Source of the DNA: Fodinisporobacter ferrooxydans
Lineage (GTDB): Bacteria; Bacillota; Bacilli; Tumebacillales; MYW30-H2
Direction: 5' to 3'
Length of the DNA stretch: 64,000 nucleotides
NCBI RefSeq assembly: GCF_022818495.1
Contig: NZ_CP089291.1
Span: 62,001 to 126,000, forward strand
Both the position numbers and the translations under genes were made by a program. Shown piece after piece: positions 5,278-54,857 of this stretch (its first letter is position 1; every line of letters starts with the position of its first letter). Below the pieces are notes generated by a model. That model was not told the DNA's origin and did no database searches. It worked only from the letters and a program-made list of their open reading frames with translations.

Positions 5278-5278
5278 A

Positions 5279-5512: not shown

Positions 5513-5525
5513 AAAGTACCTCCCA

Positions 5526-5691: not shown

Positions 5692-5699
5692 ATGATCGC

Positions 5700-6003
5700 A
5701 CAGTGGATCTCCACGTTCTCCCTCGGGGTTTACCCTCCCATGTCACGCTGGGTCTATGCCCTTACATTCCTTCGTTCTACCTCTCAAGGGGTGGAGGCCG
5801 ATTCTTGCTCCTCGACTGGGTCGTTGCCCTTATGGATAAAATCCTTCGGCTTCTCCGGTGCTTCCGTTGTCAAAGTTGTGCACATCTGAATAATCGAGTT
5901 TTCAGTTTGTTGATAATGTTGAATTTGTGAAATATCCAGTTGTGGATATTTCATTTATTAAAAACCAGATACTAAGCTGTTGATACGTGTTCTATTTTTT
6001 ATT
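5700..6003 (-). ncRNA. Candidate bridge-RNA region of the IS110 element
   Basis: 304 nt without a gene between the transposase stop and the element end. IS1111-like elements carry their bridge (guide) RNA downstream of the transposase. The region has several hairpins, including an imperfect one at 5888-5907. It repeats two stretches of the target flanks: AATAATCG (5889-5896) also occurs at the right flank (7423-7430), and TGGATAAAAT (5833-5842) also occurs at the left flank (5679-5688). Such matches would be expected of target guides but are short enough to arise by chance. Confidence 0.35.
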
Positions 6004-7302
6004 TTATGCTGCACTTTGTTGTAGCTGGGCTTGTCGGACTGGCCCCAGTACATCGTTTGCGTTATACTCTTTCTGCTTTGTCCCCAATGTATAAAGTACG
6101 CGAACCAGTTTTCCACATAAGGCGATGATCGACTGCTTCTTTTTTAACGGATTCTGACTACGTGTCGTGTAATACTTGTGCAGCTCTTTAAATTCTTCGT
6201 TTTTGGCCACCATCGGTAGCATGGCGCGAAACAAGATGCCTCTTAATCGAGAACGACCCCGCTTGCTGATCCCCGTTTTCCCCTTCCGTTTTCCAGAACT
6301 ATTCTCAGTCAAATTCAGTCCAGCCAAGCGGATGATTTGCTGTCCGTGATCATAGTTGTTGAGATCGCCAACCTCCGCTAGGAAACCGGCGACGGTCAGA
6401 ACACCAACCCCTGGGATGCTCAGCATCTGCCGAGTTCCGGGGATCTTCTCAAGAATCTGCAAGACTTGCGCCATAATGGTTTCTTCCTGCTTGCCATACA
6501 GATCGTACTGCTGCAGCAAGATAGTCAGCTCGATTCGAGCCGCTGCCAGTCCCTCGGTAAGCCCGATGGAAGCCGTTGCGGTCGCATAGAGCTGCTCCGC
6601 TCTCTTAATGCCCACCCCACGCTTGATTTCCGTCTTCCAATGTGAGAGAACGCCTCTGGCGCCTACGGAGACAATCTCCTCTGGAGTTGGAAACTGACGC
6701 ATGGTCATGAGGGACGCTTTCCCTTCCCAGTCCTTAAATACCTGTGGATACTCTGGAAAGTAGCGGTCAAACCAGTTTGTGATCCGTGTTTTCACTTGAA
6801 TCAAGCTCACCATGACCTTCTCGCGAAGATTCATCAGAATGCGTAATTCTGCGTATTCCTTGGTCGGTAAGTTAGGTTCTGAGTACTTTCCATTCCGAAT
6901 GAGGTCGGCAATGACTTTTGCATCCTTGTAGTCGCTTTTGGTCTGTGAGTTGTCCTCGAGCTCCTTGCTCTTGTTCACATGATGCGGATTGACAACAACA
7001 ACCTGAATGCCTTGCTCCTTCAAAAACGCCGCTAACGGGAACCAGTAGTGTCCAGTCGGTTCAATGCCGAATATAATGTCTGTTTTCTCATGAATTCGGC
7101 CAAGCTCCTTCATCCACGCTGCCAGCTTCGTCAGCCCTTCCTGGTCGTTGTGAAACACACAGTCCTTCCCAAGCTCAATTCCACGGAAATCCACAGCTCG
7201 AGCTACGTGTATCTTCTTTGCGATGTCAGCTCCAACCACCAATGTGTTCTCGGTAATTCTTGTAATCCGTTGATTCTGTTTCTGCTTCGTCTTATACTTC
7301 AT
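6004..7302 (-). CDS. IS110-family transposase
   Basis: 432 residues. The N-terminal DEDD RuvC-like domain starts at VVGADIAKKIHVARAVD (catalytic Asp in GADIAK), with FGIEPTGHYW and VVVNPHHVNKSKE further on and SDYKDAKVIADL as later acidic motif. The C-terminal Transposase_20 domain holds the helix-hairpin-helix IPGVGVLTVAGFLAEVGD and the conserved serine region LNLTENSSGKRKGK. These are hallmarks of IS110 recombinases, which work with a bridge RNA. Full length, no frameshift, so the element may still be active. Confidence 0.95.
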   Translation of the reverse strand: MKYKTKQKQNQRITRITENTLVVGADIAKKIHVARAVDFRGIELGKDCVFHNDQEGLTKLAAWMKELGRIHEKTDIIFGIEPTGHYWFPLAAFLKEQGIQVVVVNPHHVNKSKELEDNSQTKSDYKDAKVIADLIRNGKYSEPNLPTKEYAELRILMNLREKVMVSLIQVKTRITNWFDRYFPEYPQVFKDWEGKASLMTMRQFPTPEEIVSVGARGVLSHWKTEIKRGVGIKRAEQLYATATASIGLTEGLAAARIELTILLQQYDLYGKQEETIMAQVLQILEKIPGTRQMLSIPGVGVLTVAGFLAEVGDLNNYDHGQQIIRLAGLNLTENSSGKRKGKTGISKRGRSRLRGILFRAMLPMVAKNEEFKELHKYYTTRSQNPLKKKQSIIALCGKLVRVLYTLGTKQKEYNANDVLGPVRQAQLQQSAA

Positions 7303-7425
7303 GTGAGCGCCTCTTTTCGTATGTAGGTATTGTTCTGCGTCGAACGTTTCCTAGTATACAAGAGGTGCTTTTTTCGTTCAAAGCTTAAATTACTTCATTA
7401 CAGGAATTGCTCCTCAGTTGCTAAT

Positions 7426-8052
7426 AATCGTAAACGAATCGTTTTGTGTGCTAAAACTTCCAGTGACAGAGTCCGATGTGATCGCTTGTGGTTGTGTTGT
7501 GAAGACACAATCATACTCGCCGTATAAATAAACTCCTCGTGCAAAAGAAAATATCGGTAAGAATCCTGGTGAAGGTTCGTAATCACCTAAACCAATACGA
7601 ATATTTCTCATTGCACCACCATTGTCAGATCCTAACCAATCATACTGAGACAAAAGAGACCATTTACACACCGCAGACAACCAAACGATTAAGTCTGCAT
7701 TTGTTGTATAAATGGTTCCTTTTATCGCGCCGTTGAATGGAGCTCCACGGTATTGCGTTATGATCCCTGAACCCGAATCTGTTGACGTATAATAATCGAG
7801 ACCGATACCCGTTTGGCTTTCTATTTGATCGTCGTTTCCAACTGTAATCCCGATAAACGGCAACTGTTCGGGCTTCATTGGAAACCCGGGAGCAATAATG
7901 ATCTGATTGTTTGCATTCCCAAACCATTGCTGTGCAGCGGATAATTCATTGGCATTTAGAGCTGTTAAAATATCCGCCAATTGACTTGGATTCGAACGAA
8001 TGCTAGCCAACCCATTTTGCAATGCTTGGAGCATATATGTTTCCGCCATCAT
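7426..8052 (-). pseudogene. 5' fragment of neck/tail gene split by IS110 element
   Basis: Codes about 209 native residues (MMAETYMLQALQNGLASIRS... to ...QNDSFTI) before running into the IS element, where it ends after three foreign codons (stop 7414). It resembles neck or tail terminator proteins of myophages by size and by place between capsid-associated genes and the sheath gene. I cannot assign it firmly. Its disruption probably prevents virion assembly unless the IS excises. Confidence 0.7.
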
Positions 8053-31635: not shown

Positions 31636-32241
31636 TTGCTAAACTTTTTGCAAATTATAAGGGCGGTGTTTCGAGTGATTATTACCCATCATTTTCCAGT
31701 TGATCTTCCCTGTTATTTTCAGCTCGGCAGGGCCAATAATTTCCCTGTGATTGAATCTTGCCCGATTTGTAAGTCCCAACAGAAGTTAAAACGCCATGGT
31801 TTTTATAACCGCTACGCGATCGAGACCGATGCAGAATATCGGATTCCCATTTGCCGTTACAAATGTCCGAATCCCAAATGTAACAAAACATTCGCTATTC
31901 TTCCGGATTTTCTGCTTCCCTACTTTCAGAACACGCTCTCTTCCATCTTGCAGACCTTACAACTATTCTGGGCTTATTGTGTACTGCTATTTAGCCGCCA
32001 GTTAGTTTGTTTTTACCGGAAACGGTTGATGGCCAAAAGCAAAATCATCGAGATGTTCTTTCGTCTTGAGGGGAACAAACAGATCTTCCCAGAAGATCCC
32101 ATAGAAAAAGCCATAATGCTTCTGAATATGATTGAAACTCTCCCCAGAGTCACCTTCATTCGAAAGTGGCACAATCATTACATTAGCAGCTTTATGGCAC
32201 ATTCATTTTATCACGGATCACCCGTGGCCAAAACAGAATAA
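31636..32241 (+). CDS. DUF6431-type transposon protein
   Basis: 201 residues. A zinc-ribbon-like N-terminal part (CPICKSQQKLKRHGFYNRYA ... CRYKCPNPKCNKTFAILPDF) similar to the leading domains of transposases that read target or end DNA, followed by a helical part. First gene of the transposon. DUF6431 proteins accompany this transposase/ATPase pair in Firmicutes. Start may be the GTG or ATT nearer 31675. Role probably in end or target binding. Confidence 0.7.
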   Translation: MLNFLQIIRAVFRVIITHHFPVDLPCYFQLGRANNFPVIESCPICKSQQKLKRHGFYNRYAIETDAEYRIPICRYKCPNPKCNKTFAILPDFLLPYFQNTLSSILQTLQLFWAYCVLLFSRQLVCFYRKRLMAKSKIIEMFFRLEGNKQIFPEDPIEKAIMLLNMIETLPRVTFIRKWHNHYISSFMAHSFYHGSPVAKTE

Positions 32242-32386
32242 TGTTTCCACATACCTTTTTCCTCGTCAGGGACCGTGTACGGGTTTTATAATGCATCGTA
32301 ATGGTTAGCCGGCTAGCCTTCGAAAAGGAAGAACGAGAAAGCGCGCCAGTTCTTTCCAATTTAGACAATGGGAGGCTACTTAACCA

Positions 32387-33652
32387 ATGGATGAACAAAA
32401 CCGGGAACGCGTGGCCCTTTTTCGCTATGGGATCATCGCTCCCTTGCTCAATGAACAGGTGGATCGCGCCACATATTTGGCTGAGGTGTCTGCCAAAACC
32501 CACGAAGTCCCTTACTATGGTTCCAAAGAATTTACACCCAAGACAATCTTAGCTTGGCTAAGGCAATATCGCCGTAATGGTTTTGACGCGTTAAAGCCCC
32601 AGGCACGTTCGGATCGAGGACAATCCCGATCGTTATCCGGTGAATTACAGCTGCACTTGGTATCCCTGCGTAAAGAAAATCAAGGAATGCCAGTGACGGT
32701 GTTTTATGACCAATTGGTGCAACAAGGAGAGATTTTACCGCAGGATGTATCTTATACCTCTATCTATCGCTTACTGAAAAAGGAGGGATTGCTGGGGAAG
32801 GGGATAGTGCGTTCGCCCGAACGAAAACGGTTTTCTCATGATACGGTCAATATGCTCTGGCAAACCGACCTGTCAGATGGGCCATATCTTCGTACAGGCG
32901 ACAAAAAAATCAAGACGTATTTAATTGCGGTGATCGATGATTGCTCTCGCCTATGCACATTTGCGCAATTTGTCCCATCCGAGAAATTTGACGGGCTACG
33001 CACAGTCTTGAAAGAAGCTTTGCTTCGCAGAGGCATTCCCAAGATGCTGTATACCGACAACGGCAAGATCTTTCGTTCCGATACGCTGCATTTGGCTTGT
33101 GCAGAATTAGGCATACACCTCCTGCACACGCAGCCCTATGATGCCGCTAGCAAAGGGAAAATAGAACGCCTGTTCGGAACGATTAAGACGCGTTTCTATT
33201 CGCTGTTAAAAGCAAAACCGGCTTCTTCATTGGAAGAACTGAATGAACGGTTTTGGAAGTGGTTGGAGGAAGACTACCATCGCAAGCCACATTCTTCTCT
33301 CAATGGAAAAATGCCGCTCGAAGTGTACTTGTCCCAGATTGATCAAGTACGGATGGTCGACGACCCTGCCAAATTAGATCCTATCTTTCTTAAACGGGAG
33401 AATCGAACTGTCAAACATGACGGAACGTTTTCGCTCAATAACCAGCTGTATGAAGTTCCCGAGCGATTTATAGGTCAAAAGATCGAGATTCGTTACGATG
33501 AACAAGGCGTGCATATCTATGAGGACGGGAAACCAGTCGCTCGCGCTTCTGAAGTGAATTTTCATGATAATGCTCATGTAAAACGAAAACGACCCGCCAT
33601 CTCCTTCGCTGATATGCAAGGGATGGACAGGAAAGGAGAAGATAGGGAATGA
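32387..33652 (+). CDS. DDE transposase (rve/Mu-type)
   Basis: 421 residues. N-terminal HTH (KTILAWLRQYRRNGFDALKP), then the rve RNase H fold with catalytic Asp in WQTDLSDGPYL, Asp in MLYTDNGKIF and Glu in AASKGKIERLFGTIK. C-terminal Mu-like beta barrel (TFSLNNQLYEVPERFIGQKI). Performs strand transfer with the ATPase encoded next; start overlaps of 4 nt between the two genes show coupling. Confidence 0.9.
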   Translation: MDEQNRERVALFRYGIIAPLLNEQVDRATYLAEVSAKTHEVPYYGSKEFTPKTILAWLRQYRRNGFDALKPQARSDRGQSRSLSGELQLHLVSLRKENQGMPVTVFYDQLVQQGEILPQDVSYTSIYRLLKKEGLLGKGIVRSPERKRFSHDTVNMLWQTDLSDGPYLRTGDKKIKTYLIAVIDDCSRLCTFAQFVPSEKFDGLRTVLKEALLRRGIPKMLYTDNGKIFRSDTLHLACAELGIHLLHTQPYDAASKGKIERLFGTIKTRFYSLLKAKPASSLEELNERFWKWLEEDYHRKPHSSLNGKMPLEVYLSQIDQVRMVDDPAKLDPIFLKRENRTVKHDGTFSLNNQLYEVPERFIGQKIEIRYDEQGVHIYEDGKPVARASEVNFHDNAHVKRKRPAISFADMQGMDRKGEDRE

Positions 33653-34458
33653 TCATGGCATTCTATTCCCTTTCCAAAATCCCTTTTGCCAAGGAAACCA
33701 AAGGTATGTCGCCCTATACTTCCCGTTCCTTTCAAGAAGCAATGGGATGTTTAACCTACATGAAGCAGGTTCGCGGCATGGCACTTGTTGTCGGCGACCC
33801 GGGAGCCGGTAAAACCTACGCCTTGGGTGCATTTGCCGAAGGCTTGGGCCAATCGCTCTACAAGGTCATCTATTTCCCGTTGTCTACAGGAACAGTAACT
33901 GACTTTTACCGTGGATTGGCCTTCGGCCTAGGAGAACAGCCACAAAGTCGGAAAGTGGATCTGTTTCGCCAAATCCAACAGGCGATTAGCCGTTTGTTCT
34001 ACGAACAAAAGATTACGCCGGTTTTCATCCTTGACGAGATGCAAATGGCCAAAGATGTCTTTTTACAAGATTTGAGCCTGCTCTTTAATTTTCACATGGA
34101 TACCCAGAATCCTTTTGTCCTTCTTATATGCGGCTGGCCTTACTTACGGGACCGTCTGTCGTTAAACCCACATAGATCCTTATCCCAGCGGCTTTTGGTT
34201 CGACATCAGGTCGAGCCGCTGGATAAGGAAGAGGTCAAGGGATATATGGAGCATCACCTTGCCTATGCCGGGGCGAAATATCCGATTTTCACGGAAGACG
34301 CAATAGAAGCTGTTAGTGCCTGTTCCAATGGATATCCACGCCTGATTAATTTATTGGCTATGCACGCCCTATTATATGGCAGCCAAAACAAAAAAGAACA
34401 GATCGATGCCGAAGTCATCCGGATCATCGCCCCGGAGTGCGGTCTGGCATTGAGATAG
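33649..34458 (+). CDS. AAA ATPase, ExeA/TniB/MuB type
   Basis: 269 residues. Walker A VVGDPGAGKTYALG, Walker B PVFILDEMQMAKD, sensor region LLICGWPYLRDRL and the arginine-rich SLSQRLLVRHQVEPL. In related transposons this ATPase selects target DNA and activates the transposase. Start ATG overlaps the transposase stop. Confidence 0.85.
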   Translation: MIMAFYSLSKIPFAKETKGMSPYTSRSFQEAMGCLTYMKQVRGMALVVGDPGAGKTYALGAFAEGLGQSLYKVIYFPLSTGTVTDFYRGLAFGLGEQPQSRKVDLFRQIQQAISRLFYEQKITPVFILDEMQMAKDVFLQDLSLLFNFHMDTQNPFVLLICGWPYLRDRLSLNPHRSLSQRLLVRHQVEPLDKEEVKGYMEHHLAYAGAKYPIFTEDAIEAVSACSNGYPRLINLLAMHALLYGSQNKKEQIDAEVIRIIAPECGLALR

Positions 34459-34528
34459 CTTGGATGGCTTAGAACGAGTCAAAGGGGACAACCCTGATCC
34501 CCAAATATTCTCAGGAAAGGAAAGAATC

Positions 34529-34765
34529 ATGATGACCCGAACCCAAAAACCAGGAATCCTCGTCTATTGTCCTGCCAAGGAACGCTGGCAAATCCAAAAG
34601 ATAGACCATTCTTACGACCTTCACTGCGGCGATTGTTTCGAGATTAAGGTAGGCTATGAGTATATCCCTTGTAGAATAGAACTTGGCTGTGAATGGCTGT
34701 TATACCTTCGGGAAACTCGATTTTATTTACATCCAAAACAGAAATACGAAGTGAAAGTCGATTAA
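34529..34765 (+). CDS. DUF5348-type transposon protein
   Basis: 78 residues from ATG 34529 (AGGAAAGGAAAG upstream). Small beta-rich protein (HCGDCFEIKVGYEYIPCRIE), the fourth gene usual in this transposon type. Function unknown. Confidence 0.65.
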   Translation: MMTRTQKPGILVYCPAKERWQIQKIDHSYDLHCGDCFEIKVGYEYIPCRIELGCEWLLYLRETRFYLHPKQKYEVKVD

Positions 34766-45247: not shown

Positions 45248-45424
45248 TTAGAATTGTTTGAGCGTCATTTCTTCGTGGATGCTTCTTGCGATGACCATCA
45301 ATTCATTTGCTGCATCCTCTTTGGTGTAATGGGAGTCATCGACAAGTTCTATGATGACTCCATTAATTTGATTCAGGATGTTACCAAGTGCAGCGCATTG
45401 GCTGAGATTCACGAGTCCTTGCAT
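45248..45424 (-). CDS. Small helical early protein
   Basis: 58 residues from ATG 45424, after GGGGGTTGTGTG: MQGLVNLSQCAALGNILNQI ... ARSIHEEMTLKQF. Helical, unknown function. Eleven nt after the 103-residue gene. Confidence 0.55.
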   Translation of the reverse strand: MQGLVNLSQCAALGNILNQINGVIIELVDDSHYTKEDAANELMVIARSIHEEMTLKQF

Positions 45425-45435
45425 CACACAACCCC

Positions 45436-45747
45436 CTAAGCGGTTTTTGAATGCTCTTGGCTTTCCGCAACAATCAAATCCAAAATCTGATTCGCAATGT
45501 CAATTGCATGTGGTGCTAAATCATCCGTCATGTTCACAGCACGTTTCAGGCCCAATGCATACCGGATTAATGGAGACATACCACTAATGATCTTGTGACG
45601 TTTGCCAGGATCAAGATCTGCCAACCTTTCCTGCATGGCATGCCGCACCCGATCCCATGCGCTTCTTGTCTGTCGCTCCTGTTCCATTTCCTGTAGCAGC
45701 TCCGATTTGATTTGTGCTTTTAACTCTGCAAGTTCTTGCTGAGTCAT
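45436..45747 (-). CDS. Helical early protein, second gene after Cro
   Basis: 103 residues. MTQQELAELKAQIKSELLQE opens a coiled coil; the rest is helical (SPLIRYALGLKRAVNMTDDL). Overlaps the Cro-like gene stop by 4 nt. Probably early and co-expressed with it. Confidence 0.6.
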   Translation of the reverse strand: MTQQELAELKAQIKSELLQEMEQERQTRSAWDRVRHAMQERLADLDPGKRHKIISGMSPLIRYALGLKRAVNMTDDLAPHAIDIANQILDLIVAESQEHSKTA

Positions 45748-45959
45748 CCAGTTCTCGCCTCCTTGATTTGATCTTGAAGGAGATCGGTGATAGGGACTTT
45801 TAAAGAATCAGCAATCTTTTCCAAAAGAGGAAAGGAGGGATTTCTATCTTCGTTTTCTAAACGACTGATGTGTTCTTGAGTAACCCCTACGCGTTCCGCC
45901 AATTCCGTTTGCGTCATGTTTCTGCTTTCTCTTATTCGCTTGATGTTTTTTCCGTACAC
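45744..45959 (-). CDS. Cro-like XRE regulator (cassette 1, minus)
   Basis: 71 residues from GTG 45959 with AGGAGGTGGTCAC. XRE HTH MTQTELAERVGVTQEHISRL then ENEDRNPSFPLLEKIADSLK. First gene of the leftward early operon, driven by a perfect TTGACA-N17-TATAAT promoter. Corresponds to Cro or early regulator of the main lysis-lysogeny switch. Confidence 0.85.
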   Translation of the reverse strand: MYGKNIKRIRESRNMTQTELAERVGVTQEHISRLENEDRNPSFPLLEKIADSLKVPITDLLQDQIKEARTG

Positions 45960-45982
45960 GTGACCACCTCCTTATGAATTAA

Positions 45983-46130
45983 ATTATATGATCCTAAAGT
46001 CATATTGTCAATAAGTTTTTATGCCTATAAGATCAATTATTTTATTCACCATCATGTAAGTAGTACCAACACTTGACGGCACTTTAATGAACAATTACGA
46101 TGAAGTTATAAAATATGTCTTATAGACATA
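45983..46130. promoter_or_regulatory. Switch region of cassette 1: promoter and three operators
   Basis: Minus-strand promoter TTGACA (46011-46006), 17 bp, TATAAT (45988-45983). Operator-like sites: TATGATCCTAAAGTCATA (45987-46004) in the spacer, TATGCCTATAAGATCA (46020-46035), and the 17-bp palindrome TATGTCTTATAGACATA (46114-46130) next to the repressor gene. Confidence 0.85.
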
Positions 46131-46150
46131 AATGCCGATAGGAGTTAAAA

Positions 46151-46450
46151 ATGGACATCGGACAACGAATTAAAATATTCCGCAAACAATACGGATATAC
46201 AGCTTTAGAATTAGCTGAAGCACTACAAGTTTCGCAATCTCATATAAGTAGACTTGAAAACGGCACTCGACTACCATCTATTGATTTTTTGATGGAGTTT
46301 TGCGATTTCCTCAACATCACCCTTGGAGAGTTTTTTTACGACGGCCTGTCTGACTTACCAGACGATATTCAACAGCTTCTTACAGAAGCCAAAAGTCTTA
46401 CTCCAGAGAAGCGAGATTTGATCATAAAACTCATTCAAGCGATGCGGTAA
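46151..46450 (+). CDS. CI-like XRE repressor (cassette 1, plus)
   Basis: 99 residues. HTH YTALELAEALQVSQSHISRL, ENGTRLPSIDFLMEFCDFLN, then a SinR-like C-terminal helix pair (LPDDIQQLLTEAKSLTPEKR DLIIKLIQAM). Probably represses the early promoter. Its C-terminal part is shared with the next gene and with a fragment at 47416. Confidence 0.85.
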   Translation: MDIGQRIKIFRKQYGYTALELAEALQVSQSHISRLENGTRLPSIDFLMEFCDFLNITLGEFFYDGLSDLPDDIQQLLTEAKSLTPEKRDLIIKLIQAMR

Positions 46451-46455
46451 TACAT

Positions 46456-46776
46456 ATGAAAGTTACAGAATTTGTTGGAAACCGTATTAAAGAATTGAGA
46501 AAACGGTTTGATATAAACGCAAAAGAATTAGCTTTATCAATCGGTGTATCTCAAAGTTTTCTTTCAGCTATTGAAAATGGTGTGAAAAAATGCTCGCTTG
46601 AAACCATTGATAAAATCTGTTCCACCCTTAACATCACTCTCAGCGAATTCTTCGCTGATGACACACAAGAATTGCCTCCAGACATACATAACTTGCTTCG
46701 TACCATCCAGACCCTTACTCCAACCCAACGGGAGCTTTTGGACAAGTTCCTGCGTGAAATGAAAGGAAGTGAATGA
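46456..46776 (+). CDS. Second XRE repressor in tandem
   Basis: 106 residues, tandem paralogue of the preceding gene 5 nt upstream: INAKELALSIGVSQSFLSAI as HTH and LTPTQRELLDKFLREMKGSE at the end. The same DNA region thus codes two repressors in one transcript, which may form heterodimers. Confidence 0.8.
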   Translation: MKVTEFVGNRIKELRKRFDINAKELALSIGVSQSFLSAIENGVKKCSLETIDKICSTLNITLSEFFADDTQELPPDIHNLLRTIQTLTPTQRELLDKFLREMKGSE

Positions 46777-47213
46777 TAGTGGCTTTTGACAAATTAACCG
46801 AATCAGTAAACAACCGAAAATTTTTCCTTAAGGTTCAAAAAGAAGTACTGGATACAGCGAAATCTTATATAGCAGGCGCCAGAGAAGAATTAACGCCTTA
46901 CTTAAATAATGCAAAACTTCAGTGCGCTTTTAATTCCGATAGCATGTCGTTATCCATCATTGATCCATCAAAAACCATCTATCAGAATGATTTAACATAC
47001 TCTTTCAAAATTAGATTTTCTAACAGTGAAAACCAATGGAAGCTGATAGTTTCTCACTACGGTTTAAGAAACGTATTTAAAACCGATCTTGGACAAGTTC
47101 CCCATACGTACGTTGGGCTTTCGCAAAAGCAAGTATCAGATTTTTACGTAAATATCGGGAACAATCTATTGGAATTCATCCTAAAAACATTCAAAGATAT
47201 CGAGACAACTTAG
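46773..47213 (+). CDS. Unknown protein co-transcribed with the repressors
   Basis: 146 residues, ATGA overlap with the preceding gene (a GTG at 46782 is an alternative start). Helical N-terminus, beta-rich middle (LTYSFKIRFSNSENQWKLIV) and helical end. No family recognised. Being in the lysogenic transcript, it is expressed in the lysogen. Confidence 0.6.
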   Translation: MIVAFDKLTESVNNRKFFLKVQKEVLDTAKSYIAGAREELTPYLNNAKLQCAFNSDSMSLSIIDPSKTIYQNDLTYSFKIRFSNSENQWKLIVSHYGLRNVFKTDLGQVPHTYVGLSQKQVSDFYVNIGNNLLEFILKTFKDIETT

Positions 47214-47221
47214 CATTTCCA

Positions 47222-47395
47222 TCATTGAACTGAACGATGATTAAAAGCAAAATCATTCACGACCGCTTGCAGATCTTCAGCACTCCAATTTTTTTCTTCA
47301 GCGAGCGCCAATATAGATAAGCATCTTTCAATATGCGATTGATTTTCTTTTGATTTTTTTTCAAATTCATTGCGTAAAATTTTAATGTCATCCAT
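47222..47395 (-). CDS. Small helical protein of a decayed cassette
   Basis: 57 residues from ATG 47395 with GGGAGGT upstream: MDDIKILRNEFEKKSKENQS ... AEDLQAVVNDFAFNHRSVQ. Minus strand, facing the truncated repressor at 47416; together they look like the remains of another divergent cassette. Confidence 0.6.
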   Translation of the reverse strand: MDDIKILRNEFEKKSKENQSHIERCLSILALAEEKNWSAEDLQAVVNDFAFNHRSVQ

Positions 47396-47415
47396 TTTTT
47401 TACCTCCCTACTTGA

Positions 47416-47544
47416 TACTTCTTCGACGAATCTGACGAGCTATCATCCGATCTCTTGCAACTTATTGATACAGCCAAGAAACTCACCTCAGAGGAACGTA
47501 AGAAAGTAACTGAAATGCTTCAAACCTTCCTTGAAAGGAGGTGA
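47416..47544 (+). pseudogene. C-terminal fragment of an XRE repressor
   Basis: 43 codons with an in-frame stop just before: YFFDESDELSSDLLQLIDTA then KKLTSEERKKVTEMLQTFLE RR. This matches the C-terminal tail of the two repressors at 46151 and 46456 (EFFxD..xLPxDIxxLL...LTPexR). The HTH part is gone. Still linked to the next gene by AGGAGGTGA, which serves as its ribosome-binding site. Confidence 0.8.
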
Positions 47545-47549
47545 AATAA

Positions 47550-47783
47550 ATGACTATATCTGAGAAGAACAGCATCCTTCCGTGCCCTAAATGTGGAACA
47601 AATCAATTTTTTCGAAACAACAGACCTAGTGCACTTGTTAACTTGAAAGAAGGAACAAACGGAGTTCCCGAAATTGATAACGAAACTATTTTTCCGGTCC
47701 GTGTTTGGCATTGTAAATCCTGCCATTACATGGAGCTTAGTTGGGAAAACCCTATTTCGTTTACCACGGACTCACCCGAATAG
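47550..47783 (+). CDS. Zn-ribbon protein
   Basis: 77 residues: CPKCGTNQFFRNNRPSALVN ... VWHCKSCHYMELSW, a two-pair zinc ribbon. ATG 6 nt after the repressor remnant. Its 3' end overlaps the convergent minus gene by 23 nt. Unknown function. Confidence 0.65.
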   Translation: MTISEKNSILPCPKCGTNQFFRNNRPSALVNLKEGTNGVPEIDNETIFPVRVWHCKSCHYMELSWENPISFTTDSPE

Positions 47784-47967
47784 AACCATCTGCATCTCGT
47801 ACCTCTGTTTTAACAGCCGTCGTTGCCGCGGCGGCTCCTTTGGTTTCATCCAAGTAAATCCCAAGCATTTGAGGAAGTGCTTCCACTTCACCGCTGTAGG
47901 AATCACCTTTCATTACTCTGATACACCAGTCTCTAAGTGCTGCAATAACTTCCTGACGTTTTTCCAT
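47761..47967 (-). CDS. Small partner protein (cassette 2, minus)
   Basis: 68 residues from ATG 47967 (AGGAGGGAGAGGG upstream): MEKRQEVIAALRDWCIRVMK ... LGIYLDETKGAAAATTAV. Translated after the XRE gene of cassette 2. Ends inside the convergent Zn-ribbon gene. Unknown. Confidence 0.6.
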   Translation of the reverse strand: MEKRQEVIAALRDWCIRVMKGDSYSGEVEALPQMLGIYLDETKGAAAATTAVKTEVRDADGSIRVSPW

Positions 47968-47981
47968 CCCTCTCCCTCCTT

Positions 47982-48224
47982 TCATGCCGTTGTGGCTTGT
48001 TCCATTGCTGACGAATTGCTAGAATCTGTGTTACAATCTTGAACAAGGAGTTCACGACTCTTAATGCCGAACAAGTCCTCCAACTTGTAAGCAACTCCTA
48101 ATGAAACTCCACGCTCACCGTTTTCGATGTAACGGTAAGCTCGTTCTGTGATACCGACGATGGTTGCGACATCTCGGTAGGACATGCCTTTTGCGGTACG
48201 TGCCTGACGCAATTTTTGTCTCAT
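47982..48224 (-). CDS. XRE regulator (cassette 2, minus)
   Basis: 80 residues: MSYRDVATIVGITERAYRYI as HTH, ENGERGVSLGVAYKLEDLFG, and the tail LLVQDCNTDSSNSSAMEQ, nearly identical to that of cassette 3. Driven by TTGACA-N18-TATACT. Confidence 0.85.
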   Translation of the reverse strand: MRQKLRQARTAKGMSYRDVATIVGITERAYRYIENGERGVSLGVAYKLEDLFGIKSRELLVQDCNTDSSNSSAMEQATTA

Positions 48225-48248
48225 ACATCACCACCCCTTAAGTTTGTA

Positions 48249-48304
48249 AGAACCAATGGTTCTAACTTGATTTTAGTATAGTTGGAACTAATGGTTCTTG
48301 TCAA
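48249..48304. promoter_or_regulatory. Switch region of cassette 2
   Basis: Minus promoter TTGACA (48304-48299), 18 bp, TATACT (48280-48275). Two operators: AGAACCAATGGTTCT (48249-48263, perfect) and GGAACTAATGGTTCT (48284-48298), the latter filling the promoter spacer. Confidence 0.9.
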
Positions 48305-48323
48305 GCGCAGAAGGAGAAATTTT

Positions 48324-48542
48324 ATGGCTAATTTTTCTGAACGCATGACCGAACTATTTGAAACCCGAAACGTAACAAAACGTGCTCTTTCACAAGCTGT
48401 CGATGTGTCTGAGCGAATGATTCAATACTATGTGACCGGTAAGAAAAGCCCCACGATGGAAACTCTTATAGCACTCGCCGATTACTTCCAAGTCTCCCTC
48501 GACTACCTCGTAGGGCGTTCAGATGAACCCGAGAGGAGGTGA
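48324..48542 (+). CDS. XRE repressor (cassette 2, plus)
   Basis: 72 residues from ATG 48324 (AAGGAG upstream): TKRALSQAVDVSERMIQYYV HTH, tail YFQVSLDYLVGRSDEPERR identical to that of cassette 3. Likely binds the AGAACC palindromes. Confidence 0.85.
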   Translation: MANFSERMTELFETRNVTKRALSQAVDVSERMIQYYVTGKKSPTMETLIALADYFQVSLDYLVGRSDEPERR

Positions 48543-48546
48543 GACA

Positions 48547-48723
48547 ATGAGCATCGGAACCAACGAACACACAATACAAATCGATCTTCAAAACGCCCTC
48601 AAGCGGTACGTACCAAATCTAGATCAACAAACGATTCAAGGACTCGCAAAAGCAATTACTGAAGTGATAGATCGAAATAACCGAAATATCGAATACGATC
48701 TTAAAAGACAGTTAAACTTCTAA
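48547..48723 (+). CDS. Small partner protein (cassette 2, plus)
   Basis: 58 residues from ATG 48547 with GAGGAGGTGAGACA: MSIGTNEHTIQIDLQNALKR ... helical end. Overlaps the convergent cassette 3 minus gene by 4 nt. Unknown. Confidence 0.6.
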   Translation: MSIGTNEHTIQIDLQNALKRYVPNLDQQTIQGLAKAITEVIDRNNRNIEYDLKRQLNF

Positions 48724-48866
48724 AACATACCTTTGATTCTTGCGTAATTCTCGATGCAGCGTGTTAATTCAGCATGAAGTTGAGCTAACGCTTTAAAATC
48801 ATTACACGCTGCAATGCTTTTTTCTAAAGATGCAATCTGACTTTCTAGTACCTTTAAAACATCCAT
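48720..48866 (-). CDS. Small partner protein (cassette 3, minus)
   Basis: 48 residues from ATG 48866 with GGGGGTGAGAGGG: MDVLKVLESQIASLEKSIAA ... a helical hairpin. Its ribosome-binding region is shared in sequence with the cassette 4 partner, showing duplication. Confidence 0.6.
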   Translation of the reverse strand: MDVLKVLESQIASLEKSIAACNDFKALAQLHAELTRCIENYARIKGMF

Positions 48867-48879
48867 CCCTCTCACCCCC

Positions 48880-49125
48880 TCACGCCGAGCTTGAGGCTTG
48901 TTCCATAGCTGACGAATTGCCGGAATCTGTGTTACAATCAGGAACAAGAAGTACCTCATCAGGAACACCAAATAATTCTCTTAACTTTTTAACCGTTTCG
49001 TAACTTGGATTGCGTGTACCAGCTTCAATGTGTCGATAAGCCCGTTCTGTCATGCCTAACAGTTCGGCTGTGTATTTTTGCGACCATTTACGTTTATTGC
49101 GTTCTTGTCTGAGCCTAGGTCTCAT
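48880..49125 (-). CDS. XRE regulator (cassette 3, minus)
   Basis: 81 residues: WSQKYTAELLGMTERAYRHI HTH, EAGTRNPSYETVKKLRELFG, tail LLVPDCNTDSGNSSAMEQ shared with cassette 2. Driven by a perfect TTGACA-N17-TATAAT. Confidence 0.85.
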   Translation of the reverse strand: MRPRLRQERNKRKWSQKYTAELLGMTERAYRHIEAGTRNPSYETVKKLRELFGVPDEVLLVPDCNTDSGNSSAMEQASSSA

Positions 49126-49147
49126 TCATCACCACCACCTTGTTTTC

Positions 49148-49203
49148 AGGTACATTTCGTACCTCACACTTTGGATTATACAGGTACATATTGTTCCTGT
49201 CAA
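49148..49203. promoter_or_regulatory. Switch region of cassette 3
   Basis: Minus promoter TTGACA (49203-49198), 17 bp, TATAAT (49180-49175). Operators AGGTACATTTCGTACCT (49148-49164) and AGGTACATATTGTTCCT (49182-49198), the second in the promoter spacer. Confidence 0.9.
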
Positions 49204-49219
49204 CGGATTGGAGAAAAAA

Positions 49220-49438
49220 ATGTCATTGTTCGGTGCCCGTCTTCGTGAACTACGTCGAAATACTGGCGTTTCCCAGAAGGAATTAGCTAATCATATTGGC
49301 GTAACTGAGCGTGCGCTACGTTTCTATGAAACTGGCGACCGCGAACCTACTATTGATCAACTTATTGCTTTAGCCCAATACTTCCAAGTCTCCCTCGACT
49401 ACTTAGTAGGTCGTTCAGATGAACCCGAGAGGAGGTGA
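49220..49438 (+). CDS. XRE repressor (cassette 3, plus)
   Basis: 72 residues from ATG 49220: VSQKELANHIGVTERALRFY HTH, tail YFQVSLDYLVGRSDEPERR identical to cassette 2 although the HTH differs. Identical tail plus different recognition helix suggests recombination or domain shuffling. Confidence 0.85.
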   Translation: MSLFGARLRELRRNTGVSQKELANHIGVTERALRFYETGDREPTIDQLIALAQYFQVSLDYLVGRSDEPERR

Positions 49439-49443
49439 AAGAC

Positions 49444-49689
49444 ATGGAAATCACCATCGAAATGCTTCTTAAAGAAATTTTACGTTTACAAGCAACACAA
49501 ACGGCACTTGCGGAAGTTTTAATGCGTGACTATAACATTAAACTTCCTCCGGATTGGATAGACCTGTTTCACAAGTACCAAATCGAGTATGCTCCTCGTT
49601 TAGGACTGCAAATCATTCCACACGAAATGTCGTCCCAGGAGCCAATGCTAAAACCGAACCTTCGTCTAGTCCGCAAAGAAGACGAGTAA
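49444..49689 (+). CDS. Small partner protein (cassette 3, plus)
   Basis: 81 residues from ATG 49444 (GAGGAGGTGAAAGAC): MEITIEMLLKEILRLQATQT ... LRLVRKEDE. Helical. The last 77 nt overlap the convergent cassette 4 minus partner. Confidence 0.6.
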   Translation: MEITIEMLLKEILRLQATQTALAEVLMRDYNIKLPPDWIDLFHKYQIEYAPRLGLQIIPHEMSSQEPMLKPNLRLVRKEDE

Positions 49690-49795
49690 AACGTTTCATA
49701 TCAGATTCAGCGTGGTCGGTTGTTTGCGCAGCCGACTCCTCTTGACGCCTTTTTAACTCCTCGAGCACAATCTCCCTTACCCGTTGTTCATCCAT
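49613..49795 (-). CDS. Small MDEQRVREI-family partner (cassette 4, minus)
   Basis: 60 residues from ATG 49795 with GGGGGTGAGAGGG: MDEQRVREIVLEELKRRQEE... . Same start as the 49-residue protein at 16935-17084. Unknown function. Confidence 0.6.
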   Translation of the reverse strand: MDEQRVREIVLEELKRRQEESAAQTTDHAESDMKRFTRLLCGLDEGSVLALAPGTTFRVE

Positions 49796-49808
49796 CCCTC
49801 TCACCCCC

Positions 49809-50057
49809 TCACGCCGAGCTTGCGGCTTGTTCGTTTTTTGCATTATTAAGCGTTTCGCTTAATTGTTGATCAAAAAAAATTCTTACATCCACATCTAACG
49901 CTTCTGCAATCATGCGAATAGAATCAACATTCGGTTTGCGTCTTCCTGTCGCAATTCCGCAATACCAAGACACTGATCTTCCGCATTTTTTTGCAATGTG
50001 TGTCTTCGTTACGCCTTTCTTTTTTCTGATTTCCTCAATTTTCATATGAACAGGCAT
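49809..50057 (-). CDS. XRE regulator (cassette 4, minus)
   Basis: 82 residues from ATG 50057 (GGGAGGTGATGA upstream): VTKTHIAKKCGRSVSWYCGI HTH, then RRKPNVDSIRMIAEALDVDV. Driven by TTGACA-N17-TATACT. Tail ends EQAASSA, like cassette 3 (MEQASSSA). Confidence 0.8.
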   Translation of the reverse strand: MPVHMKIEEIRKKKGVTKTHIAKKCGRSVSWYCGIATGRRKPNVDSIRMIAEALDVDVRIFFDQQLSETLNNAKNEQAASSA

Positions 50058-50078
50058 CAATATTCATCACCTCCCTAT

Positions 50079-50176
50079 AAGCGTAACGCTTAATTTATGT
50101 TTTTAGTATAACTAAGCGTATCGCATATGTCAACACAAAATTAGGCTTATCGCTTAATTTATTTAACGTAACGCTC
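50079..50176. promoter_or_regulatory. Switch region of cassette 4
   Basis: Minus promoter TTGACA (50133-50128), 17 bp, TATACT (50110-50105). Four operator-like sites of the AAGCGTAACGCTT type: 50079-50091 (perfect), 50114-50126 (in the spacer), 50143-50155 and 50164-50176. Confidence 0.9.
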
Positions 50177-50208
50177 AATATTGTTATATTTAACTTGAGG
50201 TGAAGCCA

Positions 50209-50643
50209 GTGACAGATTTAGGTTCTCGTTTAAAGGATGCAAGAGAAAAAATGCGTTTAACTCAAATGGAAGTTGCTAATAAATTAGGAATTTCTAACGG
50301 TACTCTTTCTGGATACGAACGGAATTATAGAGATCCTGACACTGAAACTTTAAAAAAACTGGCCGATCTGTATGAAGTATCTGTTGATTATTTATTGAAT
50401 GGAAAAACCGAAACGACATCGATCAGTCTCCCGGATCTCTCACCAAAAGAAGAGCGGGACATAGCACACGAGGTTGAAAAACTCATGTCGGGTCTCGAAT
50501 CAGATGAATCAATGACATTCTACGGCGAACCAATGGACGAAGAAAGCAAAGAGCTTCTTAGAATCTCACTTGAAAATTCCTTGACTTTAGCGAAGAAAAT
50601 GGCAAAACAAAAATTCACCCCTAAGAAATACAGGAAAAAATAA
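50209..50643 (+). CDS. ImmR/CI-like XRE repressor (cassette 4, plus)
   Basis: 144 residues from GTG 50209 (GAGGTGAAGCCA upstream). HTH LTQMEVANKLGISNGTLSGY, then YERNYRDPDTETLKKLADLY EVSVDYLLNG and a C-terminal charged region (DEESKELLRISLENSLTLAK). The length and the nearby ImmA-type protease gene suggest an ImmR/ImmA pair, in which the protease destroys the repressor on induction. Confidence 0.8.
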   Translation: MTDLGSRLKDAREKMRLTQMEVANKLGISNGTLSGYERNYRDPDTETLKKLADLYEVSVDYLLNGKTETTSISLPDLSPKEERDIAHEVEKLMSGLESDESMTFYGEPMDEESKELLRISLENSLTLAKKMAKQKFTPKKYRKK

Positions 50644-50695
50644 CCTAGTTACAAGGGGACTGAAATAAAGAATAGCGGAGAAAGGGCGAACTTAA

Positions 50696-51037
50696 ATGAA
50701 TAACGAACTTAAATCTCTTTTGCAATCTGTACTTACTGAAGCGCTTGAACCCATTCATAAGGAACTTCAAACTCTAAATTCTCGTGTTGGTACCATCGAA
50801 TCTGAACTCAAGGAATTCCGCCAAGAGACAGAAGCGAACTTCCAAGTCTTGAAAGCAGGAAATGAAGGATTGCGTGAACAAGTGTCCCAACGTGCGAAAG
50901 AAACGAAAGATCAGATCCAACACGCCCAAGAAACCGTACTCCATGAAATCAATGACATCAAACTGGATGTTGAATTTACGTATGAAAAAACGGCCAGAAA
51001 TGAACTTGCTTTGAAAAGACTTCAAGCGAAGCAGTAA
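50696..51037 (+). CDS. Coiled-coil protein
   Basis: 113 residues, coiled coil along nearly the whole length (LEPIHKELQTLNSRVGTIES ... AKETKDQIQHAQETVLHEIN). Found downstream of repressor genes in other Firmicutes phages; function unknown. Its stop lies inside the first copy of the direct repeat that carries the CRISPR-like element. Confidence 0.65.
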   Translation: MNNELKSLLQSVLTEALEPIHKELQTLNSRVGTIESELKEFRQETEANFQVLKAGNEGLREQVSQRAKETKDQIQHAQETVLHEINDIKLDVEFTYEKTARNELALKRLQAKQ

Positions 51038-51041
51038 TATC

Positions 51042-51124
51042 GTCGCATCCCACACAGGTGCGTGGATTGAAACAAGCGAAGCAGTGATTTCATAGTTCGC
51101 ATCCCGTGCGAGTGGGTGGATGGA
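51042..51124 (+). CRISPR. Solitary type I-C-like CRISPR repeat with a degenerate second copy
   Basis: 51042-51073 begins GTCGCATCCCACACAGGTGC and ends GTGGATTGAAAC, 32 nt, with the CGCA/TGCG stem and GTGGATTGAAAC 3' handle of type I-C repeats. A degenerate copy (GTTCGCATCCCGTGCGAGTG... from 51095) follows after 21 nt. Each copy is preceded by CAAGCGAAGCAGT, so a segment of about 50 bp was duplicated. No cas genes and no normal-length spacer are in the window. Probably not an immune array. Confidence 0.7.
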
Positions 51125-51590
51125 TGGAAAGATGATAAAAAGAACAGTCGCCAGACTCATCAAACAACACAGAACCAACAACCCCTTTGAAATTGCATCA
51201 CAGAAGAATATTGTGGTTCTCTTCGAACAACTCGGTCAAACATTCGGTTATTTTCATACTTTCAATCGCATCCGTACGATCCACATCAATTGCGACTTGG
51301 ACAAGCACTGGCAAAGATTTGTATGTGCTCATGAACTTGGCCATTCCATATTGCACAAAAACGTAAATACACCGTTTCTAAGGAAGAACACCCTCTTTTC
51401 AGTTGATCGCATCGAACGTGAGGCTAACGGTTTTGCTGTTTGTCTACTAACTTACGAAGAGAAAATCTCCTATGGTGAAACGATTGAAAGTTTTTATTCA
51501 AGGAGCGGCGTGCCGAATGAGATGATTGAGAAAGGCGTTTTCGATCGTGCTCTTATCGCTTGTGAGCAAAAGGCTTCTTATATGGATTAA
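51120..51590 (+). CDS. ImmA/IrrE-type metallopeptidase
   Basis: 156 residues. Zinc-protease motif HELGH in FVCAHELGHSILH and the downstream Glu/Asn region EREANGFAVCLL, typical of ImmA (M78). In ICEBs1 and phi105-like phages it cleaves the repressor to induce. The likely substrate is the ImmR-like repressor encoded 480 nt upstream. Start could be the later ATG at 51132. Confidence 0.85.
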   Translation: MDGKMIKRTVARLIKQHRTNNPFEIASQKNIVVLFEQLGQTFGYFHTFNRIRTIHINCDLDKHWQRFVCAHELGHSILHKNVNTPFLRKNTLFSVDRIEREANGFAVCLLTYEEKISYGETIESFYSRSGVPNEMIEKGVFDRALIACEQKASYMD

Positions 51591-53087: not shown

Positions 53088-53306
53088 ATGACTATTTTTT
53101 TGAAAATAAAATAGAACATATGTTTCTATTATTGGATTACAGCGGAGCAATAAATGGTTATCTCATTGAAACTTTAGATAAAAATGCATAACGGGCTCTC
53201 TATCTTTTTGTCAATTATACGAACATACATTCTATTGTATCTTTCATTCTATCCATCACTGTTGTCCTATATAATAATTACTAGATTAACGAAAGGAGCC
53301 GATTCC

Positions 53307-54857
53307 ATGTCATCCTATCCAACGGATCTCACACATGTTGCTTTATATCTCAGGAAGAGTCGAGCGGATATGGAAGCAGAAGCGCGTGGAGAAGGTGAAA
53401 CACTCTCCAAGCATCGTCGTGCTCTTTTTGAAATGGCAAAAAAATACCGGTATGCCATCGAGGACGTTTATGAAGAGATTGTGAGCGGTGAACGGATCAT
53501 CGACCGCCCGGAGATGCAAAAACTTATACATACGGTACGTGAAGGAAAATACAAGGCTGTTCTCTGCATGGATCTTGACCGTCTTGGCCGTGGAAATATG
53601 GTAGACCAGGGTTTGATTCAGGATGCCTTCAAAAGCTCCAATACGCTCATAATAACGCCGCGTAAAGTATACAATCTCCAGGATGAAATGGACGAAGAAT
53701 GGTCAGAATTTGAAGCGTTTATGGCTCGCCGGGAGCTTAAAATCATTACCAGACGGATGCAACGCGGTCGTAAACAAAGTGCAGCTGAAGGGAAGAGTAT
53801 TTCAAAAAAGCCTCCTTACGGATATTTACGTGACGACTCATTAAAATTGTATCCGGATCCTGAAACGTCACCAGTGGTAAAAATGATTTTTGGACTTGCT
53901 GCGGAAGGAAAAGGACGCCGAACCATCGCTGCTAAATTGACAGATATGGATATCCCTACTCCCTCTGGTAAAGCGAATTGGGATGGCAGTACGATCACAG
54001 CCATCATAACAAATGAAGTCTATCTCGGTCATATCATCTGGGGCCGGATGAACTATAAGAAAAATCAACAATCCGATGGCAGCTATGTCCGTAAACGCGC
54101 TGACGAAAGCGACTGGATCGTACATGAGAATGCTCATGAACCTTTGGTTGATGCAGAAACGTTTGAACGCGCACGTTTCAATGCGACTAAACAAAAGCCT
54201 AAAGTGCCTGAAACAAGAGAATTATCGAGTCCACTTGCTGCCTTGATTTTCTGCAAAAATTGTGGTCATGCTATGCGCCGTCAAAAAACATACAATCGAC
54301 CTTTTAATTCCCTGCTTTGCAATACTTACGGCTGTACAACCCGGGGCGCTCGGTTCGAGATCGTTGAGGAACGCTTATTGCATACTTTAAAAGATATGCT
54401 TCACGGAATCGAACTTTCTCCATCGATGGATAATGGCCAGCACAGAAATAAACTTGAATCTATGATTGAAATGACAAAGAAAAAAGTCGATAGTTTACAA
54501 GAAAGTATATCCGAGCTACAAAAGCAACGAAATAACCTTCATGATCTTCTAGAACGTGGTGTCTATGATGTGGATACATTCCTGGAAAGAAATCGAGTGG
54601 TAAATGATCGTCTTGAGCAATTGAATGGTGAATTGGATAGTTCAACATCTGAATTAGTATTGTTGAACGATGAATCACAAAAGCAAAATGACTTGGCTCC
54701 CAGGATATCACAGGTACTCGCTTCCTATGAGGCGGCTCAAACTGCTCAGGAGAAAAATGATCTCTTAAGAAGCATAATTGAAAGGGCTGTTTACGTGAGG
54801 CCACAAGAGTGGAGGAAAAAGGATCAGTTTGATTTAGAGGTGTATCTTCGTGTGTAG
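53307..54857 (+). CDS. Large serine recombinase (phage integrase)
   Basis: 516 residues from ATG 53307 (AAAGGAG upstream). Resolvase domain with catalytic Ser18 in YLRKSRADME and Arg in MDLDRLGRGNM, recombinase domain (PPYGYLRDDSLKLYPDPETS ... NWDGSTITAIITNEVYLGHI), zinc ribbon (CKNCGHAMRR ... CNTYGC) and a C-terminal coiled coil. Integrates and, with a directionality factor, excises the prophage. Ends about 20 nt from the junction with host yhbH. Confidence 0.95.
   Translation: MSSYPTDLTHVALYLRKSRADMEAEARGEGETLSKHRRALFEMAKKYRYAIEDVYEEIVSGERIIDRPEMQKLIHTVREGKYKAVLCMDLDRLGRGNMVDQGLIQDAFKSSNTLIITPRKVYNLQDEMDEEWSEFEAFMARRELKIITRRMQRGRKQSAAEGKSISKKPPYGYLRDDSLKLYPDPETSPVVKMIFGLAAEGKGRRTIAAKLTDMDIPTPSGKANWDGSTITAIITNEVYLGHIIWGRMNYKKNQQSDGSYVRKRADESDWIVHENAHEPLVDAETFERARFNATKQKPKVPETRELSSPLAALIFCKNCGHAMRRQKTYNRPFNSLLCNTYGCTTRGARFEIVEERLLHTLKDMLHGIELSPSMDNGQHRNKLESMIEMTKKKVDSLQESISELQKQRNNLHDLLERGVYDVDTFLERNRVVNDRLEQLNGELDSSTSELVLLNDESQKQNDLAPRISQVLASYEAAQTAQEKNDLLRSIIERAVYVRPQEWRKKDQFDLEVYLRV

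Follow-up and report, generated by a model that had tools for sequence, protein, structure and literature searches.

The 64,000-nucleotide stretch of the Fodinisporobacter ferrooxydans genome analyzed here (the window, C1:62001-126000 of a 4.86-Mb genome on one contig) carries in its left part a prophage with genes for tail sheath, major head protein, portal, terminase, helicase loaders, RecT, and RecE; the ImmA-type protease and serine recombinase genes stand at its right. Between RecE/RecT and the protease lies the subject of this report, a tandem row of four divergent pairs of XRE-type regulator genes (45744-50643), which we call cassettes 1 to 4. All nine XRE genes in the interval score above the Pfam HTH_3 (helix-turn-helix, HTH) cut-off, confirming the four head-to-head pairs described in an earlier reading made from the sequence alone (the sequence-only reading). 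The pairs are 45744-/46151+ (with a second plus-strand XRE gene at 46456), 47982-/48324+, 48880-/49220+, and 49809-/50200+, the minus-strand gene being Cro-like and the plus-strand gene CI-like in each.

Cassette 1 comprises a 71-amino-acid Cro-like protein (45744..45959, minus strand; HTH_3 E 4.1e-19) and a 99-amino-acid CI-like protein (46151..46450, plus strand) which shares 39.8% identity with a regulator from Brevibacillus phage Jimmer2; the second XRE protein of the same plus-strand operon (46456..46776) is 43% identical to it. Cassettes 2 and 3 are paralogues (minus-strand proteins 52.5% and plus-strand proteins 54.2% identical) belonging to an accessory class with short spacers and about 0.6 kb per unit; each pairs a Cro-like protein (47982..48224 and 48880..49125, minus strand) with a CI-like protein of 72 amino acids (48324..48542 and 49220..49438, plus strand). 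Cassette 4 pairs a Cro-like protein (49809..50060, minus strand) with a CI repressor of 147 amino acids (50200..50643, plus strand), and is followed on the plus strand by the ImmA/IrrE-type metalloprotease (51120..51590; Peptidase_M78 E 2.6e-17) and the large serine recombinase or integrase (53184..54857; Recombinase E 9.7e-26, Resolvase E 3.5e-16). The protein tails said to be common to cassettes 2 to 4 are indeed common to cassettes 2 and 3, but cassette 4 shares only the last residues of the minus-strand protein with cassette 3, together with a 44-nucleotide DNA border that is 98% identical. Just left of the window there is a further divergent XRE pair (G000:C1:58661-59125; L029 8653-9384) with the matching helices SQPGYQKIEN and SQPGYSKIES.

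A promoter scan of 45400-51200 returned 17 sites with at least 9 of 12 matches (shuffled sequences: mean 11.7, standard deviation 3.9). Sites with 11 or 12 matches number only four, one set in each of the four spacers and all reading the minus-strand, Cro-like gene: TTGACA-17-TATAAT in cassettes 1 (45983..46011) and 3 (49175..49203), TTGACA-18-TATACT in cassette 2 (48275..48304), and TTGACA-17-TATACT in cassette 4 (50105..50133). Both the near-consensus promoter claimed for every minus-strand gene and the operator palindrome claimed for every spacer, different in each cassette, were located. The predicted operator of cassette 1, TATGTCTTATAGACATA (46114..46130), is the sole window site within 3 mismatches; cassette 2 has predicted operators AGAACCAATGGTTCT and GGAACTAATGGTTCT, 35 nucleotides apart (48249..48298, the first palindrome at 48249-48263); cassette 3 has AGGTACATTTCGTACCT and AGGTACATATTGTTCCT, 34 nucleotides apart (49148..49198, the first at 49148-49164); and cassette 4 has four (50078..50177, starting at 50078, 50113, 50142, and 50163, the first palindrome at 50078-50092). 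In cassettes 2, 3, and 4 the second operator lies within the -35/-10 spacer of the Cro-side promoter.

Additional candidate sites lie inside the Cro-like genes, at 209 nucleotides from the first operator (O1) in cassette 2 (TGAACAAGGAGTTCA, 48040..48054), 208 in cassette 3 (AGGAACAAGAAGTACCT, 48940..48956), and 231 in cassette 4 (TAAGCGTTTCGCTTA, 49847..49861); those of cassettes 3 and 4 score above all 46 cross controls, while the possible third site of cassette 2 is not significant alone (rank 0.21). A search for third sites in 47 cassettes exceeded the 95% cross control in 9 on the Cro side versus 5 on the CI side (Wilcoxon p 0.026), and distal sites at 200-240 nucleotides were enriched over the same cassettes with z 5.9 (five other distance ranges, z at most 2.2), a figure that is partly post hoc because this range was picked after the first third-site result.

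By sequence, the ancestral main lysogeny switch is cassette 4 rather than cassette 1. The cassette 4 repressor shares 60.5% identity with that responsible for immunity in Anoxybacillus phage A403, 49.3% with that of GBSV1, and 31.7% with that of phi105; the stretch SNGTLSGYERNYRDPDT, which contains the recognition helix, is common to the cassette 4 and A403 repressors; the Cro-like protein is the counterpart of the A403 Cro-repressor; and the operators of cassette 4 recur in the A403 main switch (L253), the same four in the same order and with similar spacing (starts at 4501, 4534, 4563, and 4584), so that the search of phages for window operators proposed earlier succeeded for this cassette. 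Divergent Cro, zinc peptidase, and site-specific recombinase stand in one order in both, and we assign cassette 4 to the A403 type on its homologous repressor, the M78 protease behind it, the divergent cro, and predicted operator specificity. The A403 stretch examined has one XRE pair, its cro being followed by a small gene, an antirepressor gene, and further minus-strand genes; in the place of these genes the window has cassettes 3 and 2, a remnant, and cassette 1.

Comparable arrays were sought in loci picked by similarity to the window cassettes, with pairs called by a profile built from the nine window proteins; 266 XRE pairs were obtained, 140 of them unique. A search with the cassette 3 protein (E 1e-6) found matches in 32 of 121 genomes, the window's own included, and the strongest four outside it (G120, G019, G087, and G073) sit in arrays of three or four pairs. 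At E 1e-22 the accessory CI-like type is present in 16 of 41 genomes of the relatives' family, which is probably the Alicyclobacillaceae. Scans of IMG/VR gave 1, 26, and 80 loci, the last 80 taken from 310 that were confirmed; of the 107 in all, 24 have at least two pairs, several of them overlapping or near-identical. Among the larger loci, 44 contain at least two pairs; without redundancy these come to 34 arrays (22 with two pairs, 8 with three, and 4 with four, L129 being counted although it includes two calls of a single gene), mostly from Alicyclobacillaceae prophages and viral contigs. Two isolated phages, Jimmer2 and Marinitoga camini virus 1, have two divergent XRE pairs each. The sequence-only reading was aware of no earlier description of such a layout. 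The window is not alone in having one; as for earlier descriptions, the claim is not contradicted by the literature searched (few subscription journals), where none of tandem CI/Cro arrays was found, including in the portions seen of PMC10432266, PMC7250872, PMC6550527, PMC6426606, PMC4168068, PMC4997575, and PMC8303945.

A conserved orphan XRE protein (..TTQAQIARVELGTRQPTL..) lies between the main switch and the accessory cassettes in six arrays from 4 of 15 genomes of genus g12 (L022 5979-6233, L023 8417-8668, L024, L025, L026, and L027). Beside its two switches Jimmer2 (L254) has two CI-like genes (6146-6511 and 7260-7631) without a divergent XRE partner; both resemble the cassette 4 repressor and have the look of unpaired spares.

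The two proteins of a pair resemble each other where they would touch DNA. With six putative contact positions placed by analogy with the 434 repressor, contact identity within a pair was 3.30 of 6 versus 1.67 for permuted partners (n=64 short-spacer pairs, z 14.9), and 3.40 versus 1.66 after removing relatives above 60% identity (n=43, z 13.1). In the reduced set the match peaks at positions 29, 30, and 34 (z 7.1, 9.0, and 8.0), with z 2.3 for helix 2, z 1.6 for the C-terminal part, and z 4-5 at positions just beyond the helix (8, 37, and 40); long-spacer pairs also show helix matching (z about 10). Among 65 short pairs, 46 have a best repeated palindrome above the 95% threshold set by shuffled sequences, and its doublet spacing is 33-37 nucleotides in 63% of those above threshold versus 15% of shuffles. 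The second site mostly falls between the two boxes of the Cro-side promoter, beginning 6-9 nucleotides from the -10 box (20 rows examined), and promoters with at least 10 of 12 matches occur on the Cro side of 56 of the 65 short pairs versus 3 on the CI side. Operator similarity tracks helix similarity (Mantel r 0.44; partial r 0.40 after regressing out the remaining HTH; p 0.0005; n=40). Specific combinations recur: half-site AGAACC accompanies helices TERAYRYIE/SERM.QYY in cassette 2 and in the G019 and G073 arrays; half-site GGTAC accompanies TERALRFYE in cassette 3 and in G019; the cassette 3 half-site is found again in G019, G120, and G302 cassettes; and an AGGTAC doublet is also present in a viral contig with TPRAWRFYETGDREP. 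For cassettes 2 and 3, then, the proposed operator search led to half-sites within Alicyclobacillus cassettes. Across the class, helix matching speaks strongly in sequence terms for two proteins of a pair that may read one operator.

The units also move. Cassettes 2 and 3 are only 46-50% identical in DNA over HTH and spacer, the level of unrelated aligned DNA, but 86% identical over both tails. Between G120 and G087 one cassette has been replaced in place: the left flank is 83% identical, the Cro gene and spacer 31-48%, and the CI HTH 58%, while beyond the swapped core the CI tail is 95% and the next cassette 91-93% identical. Where L022 (G019) has two cassettes in 1.23 kb (4784-6012), L023 (G073) has one in 0.60 kb, between flanks that are 89.8 and 93.2% identical; the left breaks fall within 5 nucleotides of Cro stop codons, and the right breaks about 35 nucleotides inside the 3′ end of the orphan XRE gene. 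These alignments show that prophages otherwise 83-93% identical gain and lose units and exchange them at the same place, either as whole cassettes or as their specificity cores. The earlier view of cassettes as switches of differing specificity is supported, each having the make-up of a self-contained switch, and the units are exchanged among prophages.

Arrangement within the arrays is nearly uniform. Adjacent pairs have the same orientation in 49 of 50 cases (L145 is mixed), and 30 of 33 arrays have their longest-spacer pair at the CI/integrase end, the exceptions being the window (with the longest spacer in cassette 1), L026, and L129. At all three loci with RecE/RecT (the window, L200, and L207), accessory pairs lie between the main switch and RecE/RecT. 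A strict scan of the minus strand over 45400-51200 found no terminator, and a looser scan found one weak terminator-like site at 46195. Given uniform orientation and no strong terminator on the Cro strand, every cassette would lie in the path of early transcription, and an occupied cassette could then stop it. The claim that only cassette 1 leads into the early operon stands by adjacency, but in the strict scan nothing emerged that would end transcription from the others, and in the looser scan just the one weak site.

With cassettes in that path, superinfection immunity is the simplest function, and with about evenly balanced confidence we read the locus as a modular array of self-contained, TP901-1-like CI/Cro switches that would give the prophage several immunity specificities. 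Its insertion point would lie between main cro and the early operon, each accessory unit having a strong promoter for its Cro-like gene, private operators predicted to be set in that promoter, and a CI-like gene. The CI-like proteins would be made in lysogeny, each keeping its own Cro-side promoter shut, and each could act in trans to shut the same unit of an incoming phage, whose early transcription must cross that unit; it is this trans-acting immunity that we infer. Selection for new specificities would then drive cassette swapping.

The same facts allow a multi-input induction circuit, which we regard as the main rival although as unlikely in itself: once any cassette was released, transcription would cross the remaining ones, antisense to the CI-like genes there, and reach the early genes, as in an OR gate, with cassette 4 receiving DNA damage as its input via the ImmA-type protease. 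Such a serial circuit gains from the constant orientation, the position of the longest-spacer pair, the placement of accessory pairs before RecE/RecT, and the clean strict scan. It is less easily squared with the terminator-like site at 46195 or with cassette 2 and 3 proteins that have no visible sensor domain, and it leaves unexplained why specificity is swapped amid a constant architecture.

We wish to make plain what weighs against several immunity specificities. i) The cassette 2 and 3 CI-like proteins, at just 72 amino acids, are barely larger than an HTH. ii) In 16 accessory cassettes (Alicyclobacillaceae and window) helix matching is 3.25 versus 2.48 (z 3.5), the true partner being unbeaten in 6 of 16; the lower z is ascribed to the likeness of their helices to one another. 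Within the window, helix identity is 4, 3, 5, and 2 of 6 for cassettes 1-4, counted manually on the alignment. iii) GGTAC also occurs with other CI helices (TPRLITFYE and TPRVITFYE, in G120 and G302), and the helix-operator code is therefore not one to one. iv) Two prophages of genome G073 both have cassette E, with different main switches, so a common cassette does not prevent co-residence; among genomes with co-resident prophages (G073, G120, G222, and G302) a common cassette occurs in one of four, too few to use. v) None of 20 accessory cassettes, 2 and 3 included, reached above 6 of 12 contact matches with any of 75 long-spacer pairs. vi) In IMG/VR the cassette 2-type doublet occurs in at least 120 stretches; 80 loci were kept, 4 of them with an XRE gene within 350 nucleotides, and these four genes encode large CI proteins (about 250-293 amino acids) of another helix type, with no cassette 2-type cassette among the loci kept. 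vii) Of 34 IMG/VR loci with the cassette 3 doublet, 32 have no XRE gene nearby, and many resemble coding repeats.

By the fifth point, repression of heteroimmune phages' main switches by cassettes 2 and 3 is not supported, and the idea that they are captured main switches of other phages was dropped on the same figures. In IMG/VR, the operator search gave no cassette 2-type unit among the 80 loci kept, and for cassette 3 it yielded just two sites beside an XRE gene, one in a G302-like cassette and one facing a gene without XRE match. With no accessory-type helix in the long-spacer pairs sampled and no cassette 2-type cassette in the IMG/VR loci kept, the targets of immunity would be the cassettes of other array-bearing phages.

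The individual loci are as follows. In L288, L297, L319, and L340 a cassette 2-type GAAC..GTTC doublet stands in or at the start of a CI-like gene of 250-293 amino acids (TPKAVSKWFN or alike), and given the other helix the half-site match may be independent. In L215 (5502-6239 and 6323-6553) an XRE gene with a cassette 3-type helix and operator doublet lies opposite a gene of 245 amino acids, a putative antirepressor gene that takes the place of a Cro-like one.

Searches of bacterial DNA covered, in the host genome, the operators of cassettes 2 and 3. The cassette 2 core is found exactly only at its own O1, and with one mismatch at its own second operator and 8 other places (reversed control, 1), too few for us to call them host targets; the cassette 3 core is found exactly only at its own O1, with 5 other places two bases off versus 8 in the control. 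In 41 genomes of the family, exact copies of the operator of the cassette labeled I are confined to the two I cassettes already known (3 sites), and its three one-mismatch sites have no XRE gene in the 3-kb locus. A plasmid search gave no match.

Small open reading frames adjoin the cassettes. Downstream of the Cro-like genes, on the minus strand, are the first small gene towards the early operon (45436..45747, cassette 1; no PHROG at E 0.1, Pfam matches below cut-off only) and reading frames at 47761..47985 (cassette 2, no family), 48720..48866 (cassette 3), and 49613..49795 (cassette 4); downstream of the CI-like genes of cassettes 2 and 3, on the plus strand, are 48547..48723 and 49435..49689. 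The four behind the Cro-like genes are unannotated. Having such a frame behind each Cro-like gene, the cassettes could be regulators of small cargo genes or small antirepressors. Phages P22 and N15 have secondary immunity regions in which an antirepressor is under a second repressor, and antirepressor genes do lie beside an accessory pair in IMG/VR loci L050, L053, L054, L062-L068, and L136. Yet no antirepressor family was found by PHROG and Pfam among ten window small reading frames scanned, although an unannotated one could still encode such a protein; those of cassettes 2 and 3 are not conserved (42 and 47% DNA identity); and in 8 of 49 gaps, at loci some of which are mutual copies, cassettes lie 1-6 nucleotides apart, leaving no room for cargo. 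We consider regulation of cargo decidedly improbable. In L053 and L062-L068 the antirepressor gene is near the accessory Cro-like gene, and in several of these a larger XRE protein lies closer to the integrase, as in a two-level switch.

The same proposal extends to TF-smORF modules, in which a factor activates a divergent small open reading frame that inactivates cI (Silpe et al. 2023, PMC10432266). From the parts of that account available, these are, like the cassettes, small modular prophage regulators of unlike sequence, each specific to its own target; the divergent partner here, however, is an XRE protein in all four cassettes.

Between cassettes 1 and 2 lies the remnant of a fifth cassette (47222..47544), consisting of a minus-strand small reading frame (47222-47395) and a plus-strand XRE C-terminal tail (47416-47544) which has lost its HTH and is 48% identical over 29 amino acids to the tail of the cassette 1 CI-like protein. 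A broken unit is what one would expect if a recombination hotspot had been piling up immunity units without current function, and the prophage also has two transposases, one of IS110 type and one of Mu type, the latter with an AAA partner. Such neutral accretion is nonetheless improbable: helix-helix and helix-operator matching are kept in diverse cassettes and the Cro-side promoters are near consensus, which suggests selection. The IS110-type gene (6004-7302, minus strand) separates the tail sheath gene from the phage gene that follows and may have damaged the prophage; the Mu-type transposase, with its integrase core and AAA partner, is encoded together with a DUF6431 protein (31636-34765, plus strand) in the opposite direction to the adjoining phage genes.

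Lambdoid phages have exchangeable immunity regions in which repressor, cro, and operators are replaced as one unit; there each phage has one immunity unit, whereas the arrays described here have several in a row, swapped singly.

Among the closest known switches, compared by description, is CI/MOR of phage TP901-1 (PMC7250872), which occupies less than 1 kb, with a divergent pair of HTH genes, an operator that overlaps its lytic promoter, and a further operator, OD, in the distal part of mor, a topology common to many lactococcal and streptococcal phage switches whose operator sequences differ. All four cassettes have divergent HTH genes with palindromes between them, the predicted operator overlaps the lytic promoter in cassettes 2, 3, and 4, and cassettes 3 and 4 have a predicted distal in-gene site. 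The differences are that TP901-1 CI, as described there, has 180 amino acids with dimerization and multimerization regions, as against 72 in cassettes 2 and 3, that the first and second cassette operators both lie on the Cro-side promoter, and that several switches stand in tandem; given the 72-amino-acid CI-like proteins, we do not file the cassettes as TP901-1-type members. In the TP901-1 type, cI is also under repression by a CI:MOR complex. For an occupied cassette halting early transcription, the part seen of PMC6550527 offers a precedent in L5-type mycobacteriophages, whose repressor-bound stoperators block elongation; there one repressor serves many sites, whereas here many repressors would each have a few sites of their own.

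Phage immunity is usually viewed as one repressor and one specificity per phage. Matched and swappable arrays would allow several specificities per phage, altered one by one. It is possible, and we put it forward tentatively as somewhat less than probable, that temperate phages of Bacillota keep heritable, editable immunity libraries in the form of tandem 0.6-kb CI/Cro cassettes, exchanged singly, in the path of early transcription. If so, a phage could change its immunity group, or belong to several at once, through one cassette swap, and the arrays would offer many natural helix/operator pairs from which to learn the rules of site choice by XRE repressors and the origin of new immunity groups.

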